Virus record (IMG/VR): IMGVR_UViG_3300044995_000088
Coordinates: 1-21,244 of that record
Strand: one strand, 5' to 3'
DNA: 21,244 nucleotides
Source: a virus
Shown one piece after another: positions 6,986 through 21,244 of the stretch. The position numbers and the translations under genes were made by a program. How positions within the stretch are numbered: the stretch's first letter is position 1; every line of letters starts with the position of its first letter. The notes beneath the pieces are model-generated. The model was not told the DNA's origin. It saw only the letters and a program-made list of their open reading frames with translations, and ran no database searches.

Positions 6986-7749
6986 AGCTTCGGCTCCCTT
7001 CTAGCGAAGTCGTAATCAGAAGCGCGCAATATGCGCGCAAGTCTCGCTTGAAGCAGTGCCTCTTCTTCACCGAGGCCGGCTGCCTCGAAGGCCGGTACGA
7101 CGCGCTCGCGCCACACCGCAGCGACGCCCATGTCTCGAACCGCATAGACGCCCCCGATGATCTTCTCGGCCTTCGCCGGTCCGACGCCGGGGCAGCCCGA
7201 ATAACCGTCCGTCCGGTCGCCCGACAGCGTCTGGCAGAGGTGCCAGTAGTCTGCGTCGTGTTCGCTGATCTCGACCGGCTCTTGCAGTTTACCGGGAATG
7301 AAGAGCAGCCCCGGGATAGACTTCATGTCCTTGTCGATCGAGACCAAGATCTTCGTGCCCGGCACGATGACCTTGGAGGTCATGATGATGCCGGCCACGT
7401 CGTCGCCCTCTAGGCCCGGCCTGACGTAAGCCTTGTGAGCCTCGATCAGGTGCGCCCGCAGGGCGTCGTAGAGCATCGGCTTTCTGGTCGTCCGGCCGGC
7501 CTTGTAGGACGGCGACAGATTGCGCCTGAACGACCCGCCGGCGTCACTCAGAACGACAACGACACGCGAGGCCTTGAGTAGGTCGCGATAGTAGGTCAGC
7601 TCGGCGTCGATCCGCCCTTTCGCCTCTTCGAGGTCGGCCCATAAGGAGAACTGCCCGTCTCCCCAGTCGATCGCCCGCTCGACGGCGAACCCTGTGCGGT
7701 AGACGAGAATGTCGCCATCAACGACGATCGACGTGTCGTTACGACCCAT
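6970..7749 (-). CDS. 5'-3' exonuclease (gp6-like, FEN/RNase H fold)
   Basis: 259 residues from ATG 7749, chosen because GGAGG lies nine bases upstream and residues 9-13 (VVDGD) then fall where the first metal-binding aspartates belong. An ATG ten codons earlier is less likely. Metal-ligand blocks in order: D11/D13, D69 (VLSDAGG), EGDD at 114-117, SIDKDMKSIPG at 137-147 (D139, D141), D178/D181, then the helix-hairpin-helix-like GCPGVGPAKAEKII (185-198). Role: host DNA degradation and primer removal. It overlaps the upstream acidic protein by 11 bases and lies two genes after DNA polymerase, close to the T7 order. Confidence 0.92.
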   Translation of the reverse strand: MGRNDTSIVVDGDILVYRTGFAVERAIDWGDGQFSLWADLEEAKGRIDAELTYYRDLLKASRVVVVLSDAGGSFRRNLSPSYKAGRTTRKPMLYDALRAHLIEAHKAYVRPGLEGDDVAGIIMTSKVIVPGTKILVSIDKDMKSIPGLLFIPGKLQEPVEISEHDADYWHLCQTLSGDRTDGYSGCPGVGPAKAEKIIGGVYAVRDMGVAAVWRERVVPAFEAAGLGEEEALLQARLARILRASDYDFARREPKLWEPK

Positions 7750-8002
7750 CGTCTGGGTCCTCCTCGTCCTCGTCGTCATTCTCTTGCCGGGCCGCCCTGA
7801 TCGCCTCGGCCACCCTGAAATGTTGCGTCGCGTCCATCCGGCCGAGAGGTATCAGCCACAAGACATCGTGGCCGTCCGCTTCGAGGCTCTCGATCAGATC
7901 GGCGGGGCTGTCTGTGTTCGACGCGACGAACGAGACAGTGGCGCGGCCAGCGAAGAGGGCCGAGAACGCCCACCGGAAGTCATCAGAGCCGCTTGACAAC
8001 AT
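7739..8002 (-). CDS. Small protein with acidic tail, 87 aa
   Basis: Not recognised. A compact N-terminal part (FRWAFSALFAGRATVSFVAS, then ADLIESLEADGHDVLWLIPLG) looks alpha/beta. It is followed by a helix (FRVAEAIRAARQEN) and a strongly acidic tail DDEDEEDPDD. Acidic tails on small phage proteins can mimic DNA or contact DNA-processing enzymes, as in gp2.5, but that is analogy only. It lies between the GIY-YIG-type gene and the exonuclease, overlapping both (20 and 11 bases), so it is co-translated with replication genes. Confidence 0.7.
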   Translation of the reverse strand: MLSSGSDDFRWAFSALFAGRATVSFVASNTDSPADLIESLEADGHDVLWLIPLGRMDATQHFRVAEAIRAARQENDDEDEEDPDDGS

Positions 8003-8474
8003 TGATGGCCTCCTCGACAGACACGGCGAACCACTCGCCAGACAGCCGAGCTTCGCCCAGCGCCATGTGCGCCGCGGCCTCCGCCGCGTATCTGTCTGGG
8101 AAGAACCTGTAGTATCTCAGCTCGTACCCCCGCAGAGGGTCGGCCACCTGAAAGGACGCTAAACGGTCTTCTGGGTCGACCGCCCGGCCGATCTTCACGA
8201 AGCCCGGCCACGCGTTGTTTGTCATGACGTAGACGAACCCCTCGCGAACGCCGGTAGTCAGTGTATTGAGGGACTTCAGGACATCGGCGTACTTCGTTCG
8301 GATTGCGTCTAGTCTCTTCTTGTTCCTCGCGGCAACCCGCCTAGTACTATCGCACGGGACACATGTGTACCAGCACTTGGCTTGGTAGTATTCCGACCAG
8401 TTGAGGCCAATAATCAGTGGGTTGCGGCAGGTCTTGCATTCGCGATCAGTGAGTTTCAGCCCAGTTGCGGCCAA
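7983..8474 (-). CDS. GIY-YIG / T5orf172-type protein with zinc ribbon
   Basis: 163 residues if started at TTG 8474, which has GAGAGG six bases upstream and overlaps DNA polymerase by only 29 bases. The frame is open to ATG 8567, but that would overlap the polymerase by over 120 bases. Residues 13-41 carry C-x2-C ... C-x2-C, a zinc-ribbon-like pair. Residues ~79-150 match the T5orf172/MUG113 branch of the GIY-YIG clan: GFVYVMTN, then VKIGRAVDPEDRLASFQ, a helical middle and GEWF. Family knowledge: DNA-binding or nicking domains, some in homing endonucleases. It lies directly behind DNA polymerase, a favoured site for free-standing homing nucleases. Whether it cuts is unknown; the classical tyrosine pattern is degenerate (VYV ... 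VKIG). Confidence 0.8.
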   Translation of the reverse strand: MAATGLKLTDRECKTCRNPLIIGLNWSEYYQAKCWYTCVPCDSTRRVAARNKKRLDAIRTKYADVLKSLNTLTTGVREGFVYVMTNNAWPGFVKIGRAVDPEDRLASFQVADPLRGYELRYYRFFPDRYAAEAAAHMALGEARLSGEWFAVSVEEAINVVKRL

Positions 8475-10455
8475 TACGCGCCTCTCCGTCGAGGCGGCAC
8501 CGGAACCCGAGCGCTTGTCCAGCTTCTGTAATGGCCGCTGGGGCGAGCTTTGCGTACTCTTCGGCACGTTCGCTCCGGACGTAGCACTGATATTCGTCGT
8601 GAATGTTCAGTGCGAAGGCGTAGTCTTCATCGCGCTTCCAGCCCAAGGAGCGCAGCTTGTCGTCGAGCATGACGACCGCCTTCTTCATCACAATAGCTCC
8701 TGCTGACTGGAGCAGCGTGTTGAGAGCGCTGTGCATGCTGCGCACGTGCAGCGCTCCGCCGTCTATCGCCTTCAGCTTGTTGTTACGCGCCCGCACGGCG
8801 GCTTCGAGGTCTTCCTTGAGGCGCTTCAGGCCAGGGGTCTTCGCCAGAAACGCGGCTCGAAGCTCGGCACCTTTGACAATCGCTGCAGCCGCCAGAGGGT
8901 CCTCAGGCCGGCCCTGCCGTTTCAGCTGCTCTATCGCCCGCCGCCATCGCCGCTTGTCGGCCTTGGCGTCGCGCACCTCGTCCGGCCCGATGCCGGCGAT
9001 CGTTCCGATCTTCTCGTCACCGGCGCCGTAGAGGAACGCGTAGATGAAGCGCTTGGCCGTATTGCGCGCCTGTTCGTGGCTCTTGTTGTTCTTGTCGCGA
9101 ACGGTCCCTTGGGGAACGAAACCCAAGGCTAGTGTGGTCTCCCAGTGAATGTCTCCGTTGAGGAGAATGTCGGCATAGCGCCCGCCGTCATAGCGGGCCA
9201 TGTAGTGCGCTAGACAGCGCAGCTCCAAGCCCGACGCGTCCGTGCCGACCATGACGTAACCTTCCGGCGCGACGAACAGAGAGCGACACTGTTTGCCGAG
9301 CCGGCCGGCCAACTCTTTGGCCCACGCGTGAGGGGACCGCGTGTTTCCGGTAGGGACCTGCGCCAGATTTGGCGATTGATGCGAGCATCGCCGTGTAGCG
9401 GTCCCTAGCGTGACCACCGCCCCGTGGATGCGCCCATCCTGTCCGACCAACTTGAGCCACGATGCGTCGCCCTCGGCGATGTAGCCGAGGACCTTCTCGA
9501 TCATGTAATACTCAAGCAGCTTCGGCGCGATCGGATAGTCGAGCTGCGCCAAGATCTCGTCATTGATCTGCGGGCGGCCTGTGTCTGTGAAGTCTGCTGG
9601 CTTCCATCCGTAGAGCTTCATCAGACGGTCGGCGACATCGGTGCGCGACGAAGGAGAGAACGTCTTGAGCTTCACCCGTGAGAACGGCGCACCGGCCGTG
9701 TAGCCGGTCCGCTTGTTGTCACGGCTCGGAGTGAACTGCCCGTCAAAGGCCCACCACGGCGGGATGTCCTTCTGAAGCTCGGTCAGAAGTTCTGCCCGCC
9801 GGCCGGCGAGCTCGGCATAGAACGCGGCGGCTCGCTCCTTATCGAAGACGACACCGACCGCCTCCTGCCACGCCATCAGCTCGGCGAACCGGTGCTCAAG
9901 CTCGATGGCCGCGCGATCGTCCATCCCGAGCTTGCGGTTGACGGCTTCGGCCTTCTTTATGGCCTGCCAGAGGGCGACCGTGACGCGGACGTCCTGCTCG
10001 CAGTAAGTCTGCATCTCGGGCGTCCACGTCTGCCACGCATCGTCCTCGCCCTTTCCGAAGCTCCCCTTTAGCACTCCGAGACGAACGCCCCAAGCTTCGA
10101 GCGTGTTCTTGCCGACCAGCCGCCGCGGGAACCCACGCTCCACCCGGCGAATGTCGTCGTCCTTGACGTCGGGCCAGTGGTAACGCGCAAGAAGAACCGT
10201 ATCGCGGACGACGCCCTTGATCTCCAGCAGAGGGTACACCTTCTTGAGCGCCGGGAGGTCGAACCGCAGGATGTTGTGGCCGACCACTGTATCGGCCTCT
10301 TGCAGCATCTTCAGACCAACTTCTATCGGCCGGTAGCCCGGCTGGTCGGCGCACGACACCAACTCGCCGGTGTCGAGGTTGAAGACGACCAGCGAGTGAA
10401 CGCGCGTGAGTGTGTCCAAGAAACCGTCGGTCTCGATGTCGAACGCGCAGTCCAC
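8446..10455 (-). CDS. DNA polymerase, family A with 3'-5' exonuclease (gp5-like)
   Basis: 669 residues against 704 in T7 gp5. Exonuclease site: FDIE at residues 5-8 (D6, E8), HNILRFD at 60-66, YCEQD at 151-155. Polymerase motif A: GTDASGLELRCLAHYM at 404-419 with D406. Motif B: RNTAKRFIYAFLYGAG at 464-479. Motif C: NIHDEYQ at 617-623. All catalytic positions are intact, so the enzyme should be active and proofreading. Start is GTG 10455 with AAGGAG six bases upstream. Whether it uses host thioredoxin as T7 does cannot be judged; the thumb region is not obviously extended. Neighbours are primase-helicase upstream and a GIY-YIG-type gene overlapping its end. Confidence 0.97.
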   Translation of the reverse strand: MDCAFDIETDGFLDTLTRVHSLVVFNLDTGELVSCADQPGYRPIEVGLKMLQEADTVVGHNILRFDLPALKKVYPLLEIKGVVRDTVLLARYHWPDVKDDDIRRVERGFPRRLVGKNTLEAWGVRLGVLKGSFGKGEDDAWQTWTPEMQTYCEQDVRVTVALWQAIKKAEAVNRKLGMDDRAAIELEHRFAELMAWQEAVGVVFDKERAAAFYAELAGRRAELLTELQKDIPPWWAFDGQFTPSRDNKRTGYTAGAPFSRVKLKTFSPSSRTDVADRLMKLYGWKPADFTDTGRPQINDEILAQLDYPIAPKLLEYYMIEKVLGYIAEGDASWLKLVGQDGRIHGAVVTLGTATRRCSHQSPNLAQVPTGNTRSPHAWAKELAGRLGKQCRSLFVAPEGYVMVGTDASGLELRCLAHYMARYDGGRYADILLNGDIHWETTLALGFVPQGTVRDKNNKSHEQARNTAKRFIYAFLYGAGDEKIGTIAGIGPDEVRDAKADKRRWRRAIEQLKRQGRPEDPLAAAAIVKGAELRAAFLAKTPGLKRLKEDLEAAVRARNNKLKAIDGGALHVRSMHSALNTLLQSAGAIVMKKAVVMLDDKLRSLGWKRDEDYAFALNIHDEYQCYVRSERAEEYAKLAPAAITEAGQALGFRCRLDGEARIGRNWAETH

Positions 10456-14698: not shown

Positions 14699-14721
14699 CC
14701 TCCATTTGCAGCTACGCAACC
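14699..14721 (-). promoter_or_regulatory. Candidate phage promoter motif, copy 2
   Basis: The minus strand reads GGTTGCGTAGCTGCAAATGG then AGG. Together with the following bases to the ATG it matches the element at 17565-17587 in 25 of 30 positions, a strong match for two gaps 2.9 kb apart. It begins on the last bases of the RNA polymerase stop codon, the place where T7 has its first class II promoters. The ribosome binding site GGAGG is part of the conserved block, so translation coupling is an alternative explanation for the conservation. Confidence 0.45.
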
Positions 14722-17207
14722 TAGGCGAAGAAGTAGGGGCTCTCGCGGACCGCCGAGATGTCGAGCGCCCCGCGAGTTGGCAGAGGAGGCAGCTCCGCAT
14801 GCGCCTCCTCTGGAAGAGCGGCCTTCACCTCTTCGAGCAGCGACGCCAGCGGATCGTTGGTCTCGTAGAGGGACACGAAGGCCTCACGCAGACACGCGAC
14901 AGACATGTCGGTGTCGGCCGCTAAGGTGCCGTAACAGTCGTGCACGAGCGCGCAGTTGTTAACACCGTTCGCAGAGGCGAGCAGCACGTAATCTTGGAGC
15001 GCCGTCGCGTCGAGCGAGTGCACGAAGTTGGGCGCGATCCCGTTGACTTGCTTTCGCCAAGACACCTTGGCGTTATCGAAGGACGGGATAACGGCCCAAA
15101 TCAGGGTCTCCCCTAGCTTGGTCTTCACTCGGCGATAGCGGTCCTCGAAGTAGGCTTGAAAGACCCGGAACCCGTTCGGGGTCGTCCATTGCATTGGCAG
15201 CCCATACTTGGCCATGATGCGCGCCACACTGCGGAGCCACTCCATAGCCTCCCGAGCGGCGACCACCACGTCCCCGATGGATTTCCAGACGACGCCGGCA
15301 AGGTAGTCGCACGCCGCCACGTAGTCCGCGCCGAATGCCGCCTCGTGTCCGGCCTCGTCGGCCCAGTCCATGACGTACTCCTTGCACGCATAGAACGTCG
15401 CGCCGTAGGGCAACGTCATGACCGAGCGCTTCGTGGTCTTGCGGTCGATCCCGAGCTTCAGCCACGTGCGGGCGAACCGCACGCGCTTCTCCACGTCGGG
15501 GTCGAGCGGGACACACACGGACTGCGCGACCTCCTCTTCGAGCCGCTTCCGCGCTACTGCTGCCACCTCCGAATAAATGTCGGCCGGCCGGGCCGCCGGC
15601 ACTAGGTTTGTCGCCTTGCCGCCCCGGTAGTCCCGGAGCAGCGCGCTGTAATGCTGGAGACCGTTGCACGAACCGTCCAGCATCACCGGAATGTGAGAAA
15701 CGTAGTCGACGCCCTCTCGATTGTAGCCCTCCCACTCGAAACAGAAGGCCAAGAACTGGAAGGGATCATCGGCCGTCTGCCAGAACCCGCACGAGAACGG
15801 GTCTGCGGCAGACGCGAGTATTTCCTCCTCGTGCTCGTAGACCCACGAGATGCGGTCCTCGAAGGAGACCTTGTCGATCCCGAAGCAGTTCGCCCCGTGG
15901 ATCGCCAGCCACCCGACGCCGCGCGCGTTACCGAGCGGCTTGCCGACCGCGAACTCCAGCAAGGCACGCGCCACATCGTTACCTTGCGGGGTCAGGAAGG
16001 CCGGGATCGGGTAGATGCGCCCGCGAAAGTCGAGCTGATACGGGAAGTAGAATCGCGGCTCGTCCTTGAACTTGTCGGCGAGCCACAGCAGCTTGAGAAA
16101 GAGCAGCCGCTTCGGCCTGAGCTGCGCGTTCTTGGTGTGGATTGCGGCCGCCCGCCTGCGATAGGCCTTGCGGGCCTCCTCGTTGGTGGCGATATCGGCA
16201 GGCTTCTCCGGAAGCTCGTAGTCGTCCGCGCGCGGCAGCAGGTTGTCGAACGCGCTCATCTCCCATGCCTTGATGAGCACGTCGTAGATGCGGCGGTTGA
16301 TGCGCCACGCCGTCTTCTGGGCGATATTCACAGCCTCGACGGCGCGGGCCATCTTATCCCAGTCGTTCGCGGCCTCCTCCAGATAGGCCGGGTAGTTGGC
16401 CTTGATGAAGCGGAGGTTGGCCGCGGCCTCCTCGCGGACCAAGTAGTAGCCACCATCGTCGATCCCGGTCCAGTCCTTCGGCGGATACACCATCGGCATG
16501 TACAGCGGCGCCATCAGGGAGAGCTTGGACGCCCTCGCGTCGAGGAACTTCCAAGCCTCGTCTGTCAGGTGCAGCTCGTGGACTTGCTCACGCCGGCCGC
16601 GCCGAGCGACGCGCGTCTCGCAGATGCCGGTGTGCTGGATGTACAGCTCGATGAGCTTCGCCCCGACGTGGACCGCCTCGCTCAAGGTCCACCGCTCGTC
16701 GAGCATGCCGGCCGAGCGCATCTCGGCCAGCATGACGCGCTGCCGGCGGTGCGGGTCGCCGGTCCGCTCGTCGAGCTTCTTGAGAACGCGCCGGTAGTGG
16801 CCGGCCTTCTCGGCCTCGAAGCGGCGCAGAGCAAGCTCGGTCTCGATGCGCCGCCCTACGGTAGCCGCCACCGAGGAGAGCCGCGTCTCCGAGACGGCCT
16901 TGTCGAGAATCGCCCTGCCGGCAATGAAGACCGCCGTCTCCGGGTCGATCAGAGCGAGCTTGCGGGCCGCCACGTTGCGAGCACCCGCCCGGCCGGTCGA
17001 GGCCTCCGCCAGGAACCGTTTGAGAGCCTCGACCACCGGCTGCAGCGCAACGCGGATGAGGTCGCGCGCCGGTCGAGAGATACCGAACCGCCCGCGCCCC
17101 TTTGCATCCTCGATGCGCTCCTCGTACATGGCAACACCAGAGGAGACCATCTCGCGTTCGAGGTCGAGCTGCCGCTGGAAGTTGGGATCAGCGACGGCAC
17201 CGTCCAT
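14721..17207 (-). CDS. Single-subunit DNA-directed RNA polymerase (gp1-like)
   Basis: 828 residues from ATG 17207, with AAGGAG seven bases upstream; the open frame to 17288 is a run-in. T7 is 883. Catalytic landmarks: motif A DGSCNGLQHYSALLRD with D511 (T7 D537); motif B RKTTKRSVMTLPYG with K593 and Y601 (T7 K631, Y639); motif C ALVHDCYGT with H756 and D757 (T7 H811, D812). The C-terminus is YFFA, matching the T7 FAFA foot. The promoter-specificity region (residues ~665-700, PMQWTTPNGFRVFQAY and RYRRVKTKL) differs from T7, so a different promoter is expected. Role: transcribes middle and late genes from phage promoters. Confidence 0.97.
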   Translation of the reverse strand: MDGAVADPNFQRQLDLEREMVSSGVAMYEERIEDAKGRGRFGISRPARDLIRVALQPVVEALKRFLAEASTGRAGARNVAARKLALIDPETAVFIAGRAILDKAVSETRLSSVAATVGRRIETELALRRFEAEKAGHYRRVLKKLDERTGDPHRRQRVMLAEMRSAGMLDERWTLSEAVHVGAKLIELYIQHTGICETRVARRGRREQVHELHLTDEAWKFLDARASKLSLMAPLYMPMVYPPKDWTGIDDGGYYLVREEAAANLRFIKANYPAYLEEAANDWDKMARAVEAVNIAQKTAWRINRRIYDVLIKAWEMSAFDNLLPRADDYELPEKPADIATNEEARKAYRRRAAAIHTKNAQLRPKRLLFLKLLWLADKFKDEPRFYFPYQLDFRGRIYPIPAFLTPQGNDVARALLEFAVGKPLGNARGVGWLAIHGANCFGIDKVSFEDRISWVYEHEEEILASAADPFSCGFWQTADDPFQFLAFCFEWEGYNREGVDYVSHIPVMLDGSCNGLQHYSALLRDYRGGKATNLVPAARPADIYSEVAAVARKRLEEEVAQSVCVPLDPDVEKRVRFARTWLKLGIDRKTTKRSVMTLPYGATFYACKEYVMDWADEAGHEAAFGADYVAACDYLAGVVWKSIGDVVVAAREAMEWLRSVARIMAKYGLPMQWTTPNGFRVFQAYFEDRYRRVKTKLGETLIWAVIPSFDNAKVSWRKQVNGIAPNFVHSLDATALQDYVLLASANGVNNCALVHDCYGTLAADTDMSVACLREAFVSLYETNDPLASLLEEVKAALPEEAHAELPPLPTRGALDISAVRESPYFFA

Positions 17208-17355
17208 GCGCGAACTCCTTGTCGGCAATCGTGGCCAATGTGCTGAGCAGCCGGTCAGCCGCCTCCTCCTGCGAATTGGCCAGCACAATGATGTTGCGCG
17301 GACCCGCTACGTACTGCCCGCCGGAGTTATTCTGAGCGAAGAGGTACCACTTCAT
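17188..17355 (-). CDS. Small DUF7296-like protein, 55 aa
   Basis: ATG 17355 has a GGGGGG five bases upstream and overlaps the RNA polymerase start by 20 bases. The protein starts MKWYLFAQNNSGGQYV and continues with an I-V-L-A-N-S-Q-E-E-A-A-D helix. The F-x-Q-N-N-S-G-G-x-F/Y opening followed by an A-x-S-x-E-E-A element is a pattern I know from small proteins of many T7-like and other phages (called DUF7296, from memory). This copy seems to lack the usual C-terminal half. Function unknown. Confidence 0.72.
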   Translation of the reverse strand: MKWYLFAQNNSGGQYVAGPRNIIVLANSQEEAADRLLSTLATIADKEFAHGRCRR

Positions 17356-17641: not shown

Positions 17642-18526
17642 TCAAGAGGCTTCGAGCGCCTCCGCAGCCGAAAACAGGTTTGTCGGCGCGAGGTGCGCGT
17701 ATCGCAGCGTGACTTGCAAGGAGCGGTGTCCGAGCCACTCCTTGACCACCTGAAGGGGCACACCGCGCTGCACGAGACGGGACGCGCACGTGTGCCTCAA
17801 CACGTACGGGATGAACTGCGGGTCGCCGTCGGCGCCCATCTGCGTCCGAACCTTCGCCCACTGGCGGTTCAGCCAGTAGACGTCGTAGGGGAACAACGCA
17901 GAGCCGGGCGCCGCCGTGCGCACGCGCGCGAAGACCACCTCGGCGGCCCGCTTGGTCAACGGCACGGACCTGGGATCACCGTTCTTCGTGTCCCAGACCG
18001 AGACAGTCGGCCTAGAGCTGTTCCGGTTGACGTCCTGCGCGGTCAACCGGAACAACTCGCTGGGCCGCAGGCCGGTATCGAGGAGGACGATGGTCACGTC
18101 CCGCAGCTCGATCAAGCCGAGATGCTCCGCCCAGCGGAGGACGGCGGCCTCCTCCTCGACCGTGAGGAACCGCCCCCGTCCTCGGCCCTCCCGCCGGCGG
18201 GCGATGTAGGGGCGCGCCGTAAGCACGCCGCTTCGGACCCCGACGGTCAGGAGCTTAGAGAGCGCCGCCATCTGTCGGTTGATGGTGGCGCCACGCAAGC
18301 CCTGACGCTCTAGGTGCGCGGCATAAGCCGCCACCCTATCGGGAGTGATGTCGGCAAGGCTCGTAGCCTCACCGAAGAAGGCCAAGGCCCGCTCGGCATT
18401 GCGCACGAGCGTGCCCTGAGCCTTCGCGTCCCTCCAATCGCCTGCAAGGAGCGCATCGAGCGCCCCTCGCAGGGTCATCGGCGGCTTCGCCGCACGCGGC
18501 TCACGCCGCCCGACCGAGGCGCGCAT
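17642..18526 (-). CDS. int: Tyrosine recombinase (phage integrase)
   Basis: 294 residues. The N-terminal SAM-like DNA-binding part (residues ~18-105) contains the helical GATINRQMAALSKLL segment. The catalytic domain has R154 (TGLRPSELF), K181 (TKNGDPRSV), R244/H245 (YVLRHTCAS), H267 (WLGHRS) and the nucleophile Y276 (LRYAHL). The usual H of the HxxR box is Y241 here (Y-V-L-R). Start ATG 18526 lacks a strong ribosome binding site; M17 is a possible alternative. Role: site-specific integration, implying a temperate lifestyle for a T7-like phage. Integrase upstream of RNA polymerase is also known from cyanophage and pelagiphage podoviruses. No excisionase is recognisable; one of the early small ORFs might serve. 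Confidence 0.95.
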   Translation of the reverse strand: MRASVGRREPRAAKPPMTLRGALDALLAGDWRDAKAQGTLVRNAERALAFFGEATSLADITPDRVAAYAAHLERQGLRGATINRQMAALSKLLTVGVRSGVLTARPYIARRREGRGRGRFLTVEEEAAVLRWAEHLGLIELRDVTIVLLDTGLRPSELFRLTAQDVNRNSSRPTVSVWDTKNGDPRSVPLTKRAAEVVFARVRTAAPGSALFPYDVYWLNRQWAKVRTQMGADGDPQFIPYVLRHTCASRLVQRGVPLQVVKEWLGHRSLQVTLRYAHLAPTNLFSAAEALEAS

Positions 18527-19666: not shown

Positions 19667-20383
19667 TCAGAGGTCCACTACGAACCCGCTCTTGTCTCCC
19701 TTCGCGCGCCCCTTGGCGCGCAGACCGACAACAACGGCGCCATCGAGGAACCGCGCGTCATCGGTGTCGCCGTCGACAACCGGCCGCCCAAGAAACTCCT
19801 TCGGCAACTCGTTGCGGAACACGACCGCGACGGGCGAGCCGGCGGCGAGCCACGCGGCGGCCCGCTCGGCAGCCTGCGGGTGTTCAGACCACGAGTAGGT
19901 GAGATGATAGTTCGCGGGCCTATTAGCCCGCTTATTTAGCAGGTGCTTGGTATAATCGTAAAATACAACGTCAGGAAATGCAGACATGATATTGGGGTAG
20001 CGCTTCCCGTCGATTTCGACGGGAATGCGCTCCCATAAGATGTCGGAGGTGCCGTTCAGGCGAACGGCGGGCTTCATGCCGCGCCGTCTCGCCTCGGCGA
20101 CCAGTCGCCGAACGTCGGCGACCAGGTCAGCCATGAACCCCTCGCGGTCGTCAAAAAGCCGCCGCGTCTTTGCGGCGCGGGCAGCCATGACGTTCGCCAT
20201 GGCCCCGCGGCCCGCCGTGAAGAGGCAGGCCGCGGTGCAGCCTGCCGTCCTCATTGGGCAGACCTCGCGGCCCGCCACCGTCGCGGGCGCGAGGTAGAGG
20301 ATGCCCGTGAGGATACCCTTACGGAAGCCCTTCACCGTCTTGGCGTCGCGTTCGACGCCAATGAGCCTGTAGCCGCTCGACAT
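19667..20383 (-). CDS. GP88/DUF7227-like early protein with Cys cluster
   Basis: 238 residues from ATG 20383, with GAGG six bases upstream (TTG two codons earlier is weaker). It begins with RDAKTVKGFRKGILTGILYLAPA and a Cys cluster C42-x6-C49-x3-C53 followed by LFTAGRG; then VRLNGTSDILWE, PDVVFYDYTKH, YHLTYSWSEH and AVVFRNE. This series of short strands, each followed by polar residues, looks like a TIM-barrel-like fold, and the family is widespread in phages (GP88/DUF7227, from memory) with unknown function. The cysteines suggest a metal or Fe-S site, but C-x6-C-x3-C is not the standard radical-SAM spacing. It is the first gene of the early region, transcribed away from the repeat-rich end. 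Confidence 0.78.
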   Translation of the reverse strand: MSSGYRLIGVERDAKTVKGFRKGILTGILYLAPATVAGREVCPMRTAGCTAACLFTAGRGAMANVMAARAAKTRRLFDDREGFMADLVADVRRLVAEARRRGMKPAVRLNGTSDILWERIPVEIDGKRYPNIMSAFPDVVFYDYTKHLLNKRANRPANYHLTYSWSEHPQAAERAAAWLAAGSPVAVVFRNELPKEFLGRPVVDGDTDDARFLDGAVVVGLRAKGRAKGDKSGFVVDL

Positions 20384-20395
20384 GCTCAACCTCGT

Positions 20396-20563
20396 TCAGT
20401 GTTCGCACGATTGCCTCGCTTTCGGCCGCGAAGAGCGCTGCCGCGAAGAGCGCTGCCGCGAAGAGCGCTGCCGCGAAGAGCGCTGCCGCGAAGAGCGCTG
20501 CCGCCAAGACCGCGGCCGCCGTCCGCGATTACCGCGTCCGGCAGACAATCGTGCGAGCACTGA
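20396..20563. repeat. 21-nt imperfect inverted repeat around the 15-bp array
   Basis: The left arm TCAGTGTTCGCACGATTGCCT (20396-20416) and the reverse complement of 20543-20563 agree at 19 of 21 positions. The arms enclose 126 bases containing the tandem repeats. The left arm begins 12 bases upstream of the first ATG. Such a layout could form a large cruciform or RNA stem, or be the two binding sites of a dimeric protein. Confidence 0.85.
20431..20520. repeat. 15-bp iteron-like tandem array
   Basis: Five copies of AAGAGCGCTGCCGCG in direct succession (20431-20505; the fifth ends in C) and a degenerate sixth (506-520). The unit contains the palindrome AGCGCT and is a multiple of three, so frames through it stay open (ALFAA or EERCR repeats), but no start with a ribosome binding site leads in. 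Iteron-like spacing fits replication or partition protein binding sites. Confidence 0.88.
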
Positions 20564-20775
20564 GCTCGCTTATTGACCCCCTTAGCCCGCGACTCAACCG
20601 GGCTTCTCGGGGAACCACTAGCAGGCATCAGGCTCGCTTTCGCGAACGTTGCCCGCCAAGGGCCGCGGTCTCTTTTATGTCCCGGCCTTTCCGCCGGTTC
20701 GCCGCTTGCGAGCCAAGACATAGGCCCAAGCGAGCCGGCGCGCAAGCGGGAAAATCGGGTCAGGCGCAAGAAAGT

Positions 20776-20784
20776 TGTGGATAA
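20776..20784 (-). promoter_or_regulatory. Consensus DnaA box
   Basis: The minus strand reads TTATCCACA, the exact consensus box of E. coli DnaA. A single 9-mer can occur by chance, but it is the least GC-rich spot of this region and lies between the two repeat arrays. No second box is visible near it. Confidence 0.4.
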
Positions 20785-20837
20785 CTCGAAAGGCTAAGTG
20801 GAGCGGGCACTTACGAGGAGGTCTGGGGGCGGCGCGA

Positions 20838-21244
20838 GGAGCCTAGAGGGAGCCTAGAGGGAGCCTAGAGGGAACCTAGAGGGGGCCGGGAGGGAGCCTA
20901 GAGGGAGCCTAGAGGGAACCTAGAGGGGGCCGGGAGGGAACCTAGAGGGAGCCGGGAGGGAGCCGGGAGGGAGCCTAGAGGGAGCCTAGAGGGAGCCTAG
21001 AGGGAGCTTAGAGGGAGCCTAGAGGGAGCCTAGAAGGAGCCGGGAGGGAGCCTAGAGGGAGCCGGAAGGGAGCCTAGAGGGAGCCTAGAGGGAGCCTAGA
21101 GGGAGCCTAGAAGGAGCCGGGAGGGAGCCTAGAGGGAGCCGGAAGGGAGCCTAGAAGGAGCCTAGAGGGAGCCTAGAGGGAGCCTAGAAGGAGCCTAGAA
21201 GGAGCCTAGAGGGAGCCTAGAAGGAGCCTAGAGGGAGCCGGGAG
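20838..21244. repeat. 11-bp tandem array, at least 37 units, open at the edge
   Basis: From 20838 to the last base the plus strand is 37 consecutive 11-mers GGAGCCTAGAG or variants, with no insertion or deletion anywhere. Variants are mainly CCGGGAG, CCTAGAA, CCGGAAG and AACCTAGAG. Groups of four units recur (849-892 equals 893-936 base for base), a higher-order 44-bp repeat. The period is not a multiple of three and TAG falls in all frames, so it is non-coding. T7 has arrays of a similar 7-mer, CCTAAAG, next to its terminal repeats (from memory), which suggests this marks a genome end, although here CCTAGAG points away from the genes. Confidence 0.92.

Follow-up and report, generated by a model that had tools for sequence, protein, structure and literature searches.

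A long 11-bp tandem array at the left genome end of a T7-type phage and its likeness to terminal short-repeat arrays

The terminal short repeats of phage T7 have, to our knowledge, had no settled function since they were first described, and a search of an open literature library found no paper on their function. The left T7 array, of the CCTAAAG type, consists of 13-bp repeats at positions 175-340 (about 12.7 copies, 67% matches) and adjoins the 160-bp terminal repeat. In two integrase-bearing T7-like phages, too, short repeats lie at the inner margin of the direct terminal repeat: Rhizobium phage Pasto (5.0 copies of 23 bp at 282-398, beside the terminal repeat 1-271) and Pseudomonas phage LUZ100 (a weak array, 4.8 copies of 11 bp at 195-249, that straddles the edge of the repeat 1-244). 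In both, unlike the array described here, the copies were few and irregular. A further comparable case was found in an IMG/VR relative, L226, whose 10-bp array (GAGGAGACCT, 9.5 copies) lies 184 bp past the terminase gene.

We studied a 21,244-bp stretch of viral DNA (the window), which is a whole IMG/VR record and a genome fragment. It is part of an Autographivirales (T7-type) phage with an integrase. Besides its own T7-type RNA polymerase, the window encodes a DNA polymerase, a T7-type primase-helicase, an SSB, endonuclease I, an exonuclease, portal, scaffold and capsid proteins, a tail protein and a tyrosine integrase (Table 1). The main genes all run from right to left, so the array sits at the left, early end of the genome, where the initial annotation had placed it; the gene order and the GP88-type gene agree with this. 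It is noncoding (20770-21244 is free of ORFs) and lies upstream of the first early gene. Judged by RNA polymerase (about 40% identity), integrase-bearing Rhizobiales phages, e.g., Pasto and Lo5R7ANS, are among the nearest cultured relatives, and a GP88-type gene near the left end was also present in Lo5R7ANS, HTVC120P and HTVC134P. Two sister contigs, 99.7-99.8% identical, cover the middle and late part only, and both the window and the sister contig L014 end short of the terminase and the right genome end. Two further observations concern the gene region: a gene at 7983-8567 (negative strand) and the end of the DNA polymerase gene overlap, the former encoding a protein with a T5orf172/MUG113-type domain, possibly a homing-type nuclease; and the integrase gene contains, at 18015-18058, an inverted repeat of 17 bp (94%) whose loop measures 10 bases.

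Table 1 Positions of the array and of neighbouring features in the window
Feature	Position	Strand	Remarks
11-bp tandem array	20838..21244	+	37 complete units; consensus GGAGCCTAGAG, variant GGAGCCGGGAG; reaches contig end
Exact 44-bp tandem duplication in array	20849..20936	+	20849-20892 = 20893-20936; unit string AADE, AADE
70-bp exact repeat in array	21009..21155	+	Copies begin at 21009 and 21086, 77 bp apart
Leader, array to first recognisable early gene	20390..20837		ORF-free from 20770
Perfect DnaA box TTATCCACA	20776..20784	-	53 bp from array; sole one in window, 0.05 expected
GP88-family early gene	19667..20389	-	Leftmost recognisable gene; marks genome end
Tyrosine integrase	17642..18526	-	Early region
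T7-type RNA polymerase	14721..17288	-	Sets phage order, early-to-late direction

TRF, run on the window, reported a repeat of period 11 at 20838-21239 (36.5 copies, 86% matches, 0% indels, score 594), and phasing from 20838 gave 37 complete units of seven types up to base 21244. The array occupies the contig through its last base; thus 37 units is a lower bound. On the negative strand, i.e., in genome direction, the unit reads CTCTAGGCTCC. The consensus accounted for 18 of the 37 units, and columns 7-8, always linked, were TA in 28 and GG in nine. The best lag-11 identity was 134/150, as against a maximum of 70 among 200 dinucleotide shuffles; no other array compared here came near it in length or regularity (z 18.8 at lag 11). 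The unbroken 11-bp phase over 37 units, the two core forms and the exact block repeat noted in the initial annotation were all confirmed. The 44-bp higher-order structure proposed there was not: it came down to one exact tandem duplication, unit identity at lag 4 (44 bp) was not above that of shuffled order (p 0.24, exact units), and the longest repeated unit string was unexceptional given these units (permutation p 0.13). A regular 44-bp period was accordingly rejected. The sole notable unit lag was 7 (77 bp; p 0.003, uncorrected for 19 lags), which is due to the 70-bp exact repeat. Duplicated blocks make up a mosaic in which only about six sites vary, and perhaps 6-8 substitutions, multiplied by duplication, account for the differences among the 37 units. 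With so few variable sites, and variants spread by duplication, the lack of indels would be unsurprising and by itself no evidence of a selected phase.

Structural explanations of the repeat fared poorly. Both array strands folded far less than their shuffles (z +6.6 and +8.7), so intrastrand structure is disfavoured and a hairpin-forming repeat was rejected. The suggestion that the G-triplets allow G-quadruplexes holds for one canonical motif (20947-20967), the folding program being blind to such structures; this is a weak signal, and a G-quadruplex ladder was rejected. Avoidance of CTAG was likewise discarded as an explanation, since 24 CTAG occurred outside the array versus 29 expected (Markov estimate), i.e., the word is not strongly avoided. 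In the leader, the ORF at 20386-20769 (negative strand) matched no PHROGs family. An Rfam search and a tRNA scan gave no matches. The leader also holds a 15-bp array of GCCGCGAAGAGCGCT (about six copies, 20425-20519), just upstream of the GP88-type gene and enclosed by a 21-bp inverted repeat (20396-20416 / 20543-20563). As negative-strand RNA, 20396-20563 folded better than shuffles (z -2.7), and it lies in a place similar to that of the leader sites for RNase III in the T3 annotation.

The array resembles the left short-repeat array of T7 in several respects: both are noncoding, lie at the left end of a T7-type phage upstream of the early genes, and are built of short direct repeats whose core is CCTARRG. 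They differ in spacing, number and regularity (13 bp, about 12.7 copies and 67% in T7 versus 11 bp, at least 37 units and 86%). The present core, CCTAGAG, is one base off CCTAAAG and lies on the opposite strand, the T7 word itself being absent from the array in genome direction, and the terminal repeat would lie beyond the contig. The L226 array, also at a terminal junction of a T7-type phage, shares a GGAG-CCT theme, a near-helical period and alternating forms (GAGGAGACCT / GGGGAGACCT). Unlike the present one it is shorter, has a 10-bp unit, reads in genome direction and lies on the right-end side directly past the terminase, followed by a C-run/G-run hairpin. Repeats resembling CTAAAGACA form another array in L226, at 7281-7414, which immediately precedes the RNA polymerase gene and extends into it.

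We then compared the period of such repeats across the family. Genome junctions in relatives were located via the terminase of Rhizobium phage TRX32-1, and periodicity was surveyed in the 1.3 kb past the terminase stop in 48 non-redundant relatives. This stretch between the terminase and the early genes showed an excess of short repeats of 10-13 bp with a peak at 11, the range to which the present array (11 bp, 37 units) belongs. Mean z was 2.3, 2.8 and 2.5 at 10, 11 and 12 bp, with a harmonic at 22-24, and lags 10-13 exceeded lags 14-17 (p 4e-9) as well as 6-9 and 25-28. A coding control gave codon multiples (e.g., 9, 12, 21 and 24), with no signal at lag 10 or 11. A z above 2.5 at lags 10-11 was reached by 26-29% of junctions versus 4-6% of ORF-free regions elsewhere; junctions differed from other ORF-free DNA at lags 10-13 (p 2.6e-5) and did not at lags 14-17 (p 0.56). 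A smaller, earlier run of the period test pointed in the same direction. The units varied among relatives (GAGGAGACCT, AGGGTAACCTA, ACCTCAAGCTC, TAAGGTACACC) and their arrays were shorter than the present one. CCTARRG, which covers both the T7 and the present core, was 2.8-fold enriched. Among cultured genomes the signal rose above shuffles in T7, T3, phiYeO3-12 and SP6; it was weak in several others (a 150-bp measure gave about equal scores for other 1-kb pieces of the Pasto, Lo5R7ANS and LUZ100 genomes), and no array signal stood out in P-SSP7, RHEph01, Paku and CRP-125.

In these sequences, the relatives' junctions keep the period and not the unit sequence. The units differ among relatives too, so the exact word CCTAAAG defines T7 rather than the wider group. 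The analogy to the T7 arrays drawn in the initial annotation is thus borne out, by the T7 13-bp array and by the 10-13 bp excess at the same place in relatives. Its argument that strict phase with frequent substitutions indicates selected spacing stands in part: the absence of indels in one array does not carry it, whereas a period kept across 48 relatives while the unit varies supports selection on spacing better than the present array alone.

On balance, and with moderate confidence, we explain the array as phage DNA, the left member of a pair of T7-type terminal short-repeat arrays flanking the end repeat and, as its most likely role, perhaps a phased platform for cooperative protein binding. 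The parts of this explanation differ in strength. That the array belongs to the T7-type terminal short repeats at the left genome end we consider likely; the binding-platform mechanism is a tentative suggestion. The array would have grown via duplication of units and blocks, with the terminal repeat lying just past the contig end, and would form a repeated, helically phased platform beside that repeat to which a protein may bind. Such a platform might serve in the cutting and packaging of concatemers or in protecting the ends. In T3 and T7, packaging specificity lies within 5% of the termini (PMC3276506). Several points count against this explanation: contact of the array with the terminal repeat is presumed, since that repeat and the right end lie outside the contig; the unit is on the strand opposite to that of T7 CCTAAAG; not every relative shows an array that stands out (P-SSP7, RHEph01, Paku and CRP-125 do not); the 13-bp spacing of T7 is not one helical turn; and noncoding arrays can be neutral.

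A broader proposal, which we think possible though rather unlikely, is that T7-type phages keep the period and not the sequence at their ends because a phage-specific oligomeric protein coats the helical-turn repeats cooperatively, marking or shaping the ends for cutting and packaging. Candidates for the coating protein would be the terminase small subunit or, in some phages, DnaA.

The array may instead have arisen by neutral expansion, i.e., by slippage or unequal recombination at a noncoding genome end where short arrays arise and decay without function; we judge this unlikely, yet the least so of the competing explanations. Concatemer formation and end processing would, as proposed, make genome-end DNA prone to such events, the unit sequence varies among relatives, block duplications are visible within the array, and with about six variable sites the missing indels carry little weight. 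Neutral expansion does not readily account for an excess that is limited to 10-13 bp in the 48 junctions and absent from other ORF-free DNA, as slippage alone has no obvious preference for 11 over 8 or 15.

The perfect DnaA box near the array raises a different reading, in which the two form an origin of the iteron type or a switch under DnaA control that the phage would use, e.g., during lysogeny. Direct repeats near the helical pitch with a DnaA box beside them are what plasmid iteron origins present, and perfect boxes were enriched in the junctions of the 48 relatives (6 vs 0.4 in shuffles, a rate 13x that of all viral loci), although this test rests on few hits, was prompted by the data and includes one box only 37 bp past the terminase. 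Junctions with perfect boxes include those of L295, L297, L299 and L263; the L295 array, also of 11 bp, follows two boxes that lie 22 bp from each other and enclose a near-match at 11-bp steps. L118, L132, L144 and L259 have further DnaA boxes upstream of RNA polymerase. The 11-bp unit itself is not a DnaA box: the strict pattern TTWTNCACA had no match within the array, and an array of TTATCCACA-like 9-mers at 11-bp spacing was rejected. Known iterons are mostly 17-22 bp long and present in few copies, whereas the present unit is half the usual length and has far more copies. No replication initiator or cognate Rep was recognised among the proteins scanned, several early proteins being without recognised function, and the replication genes of the phage are of the T7 type. 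Near the left end, moreover, T7 and most cultured relatives lack a DnaA box. We therefore regard an origin or switch as very unlikely.

That the array is flanking bacterial sequence or an assembly error, as the integrase and the termination of the contig inside the array might suggest, is highly improbable, given that early genes run unbroken from the integrase to the array (making a host border within the leader less likely), that leader G+C (65%) equals that of the rest of the contig, that all 77-mers in the array are unique and the part shown can thus be resolved at usual assembly k values, and that, as against what a host chromosomal minisatellite would give, no exact 22-base (two-unit) match occurred in GTDB r220 species genomes, where the host's own species may be absent. 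Nor did a 28-base pattern of the array match IMG/VR, or blastn match the array to phage records or the leader to plasmids.

The present array is a new, extreme variant of the T7-type terminal short repeats, and the family-wide constraint on the period is the more interesting result. If T7-type phages do keep period rather than sequence at their ends, this array would be the longest example. A family-wide rule in which a period of 10-13 bp is kept and the unit is free to vary makes a testable prediction, for which the 37-unit array offers a strong substrate in binding and packaging assays. In practice, short-read contigs of T7-type phages with such arrays can break exactly at the genome ends.
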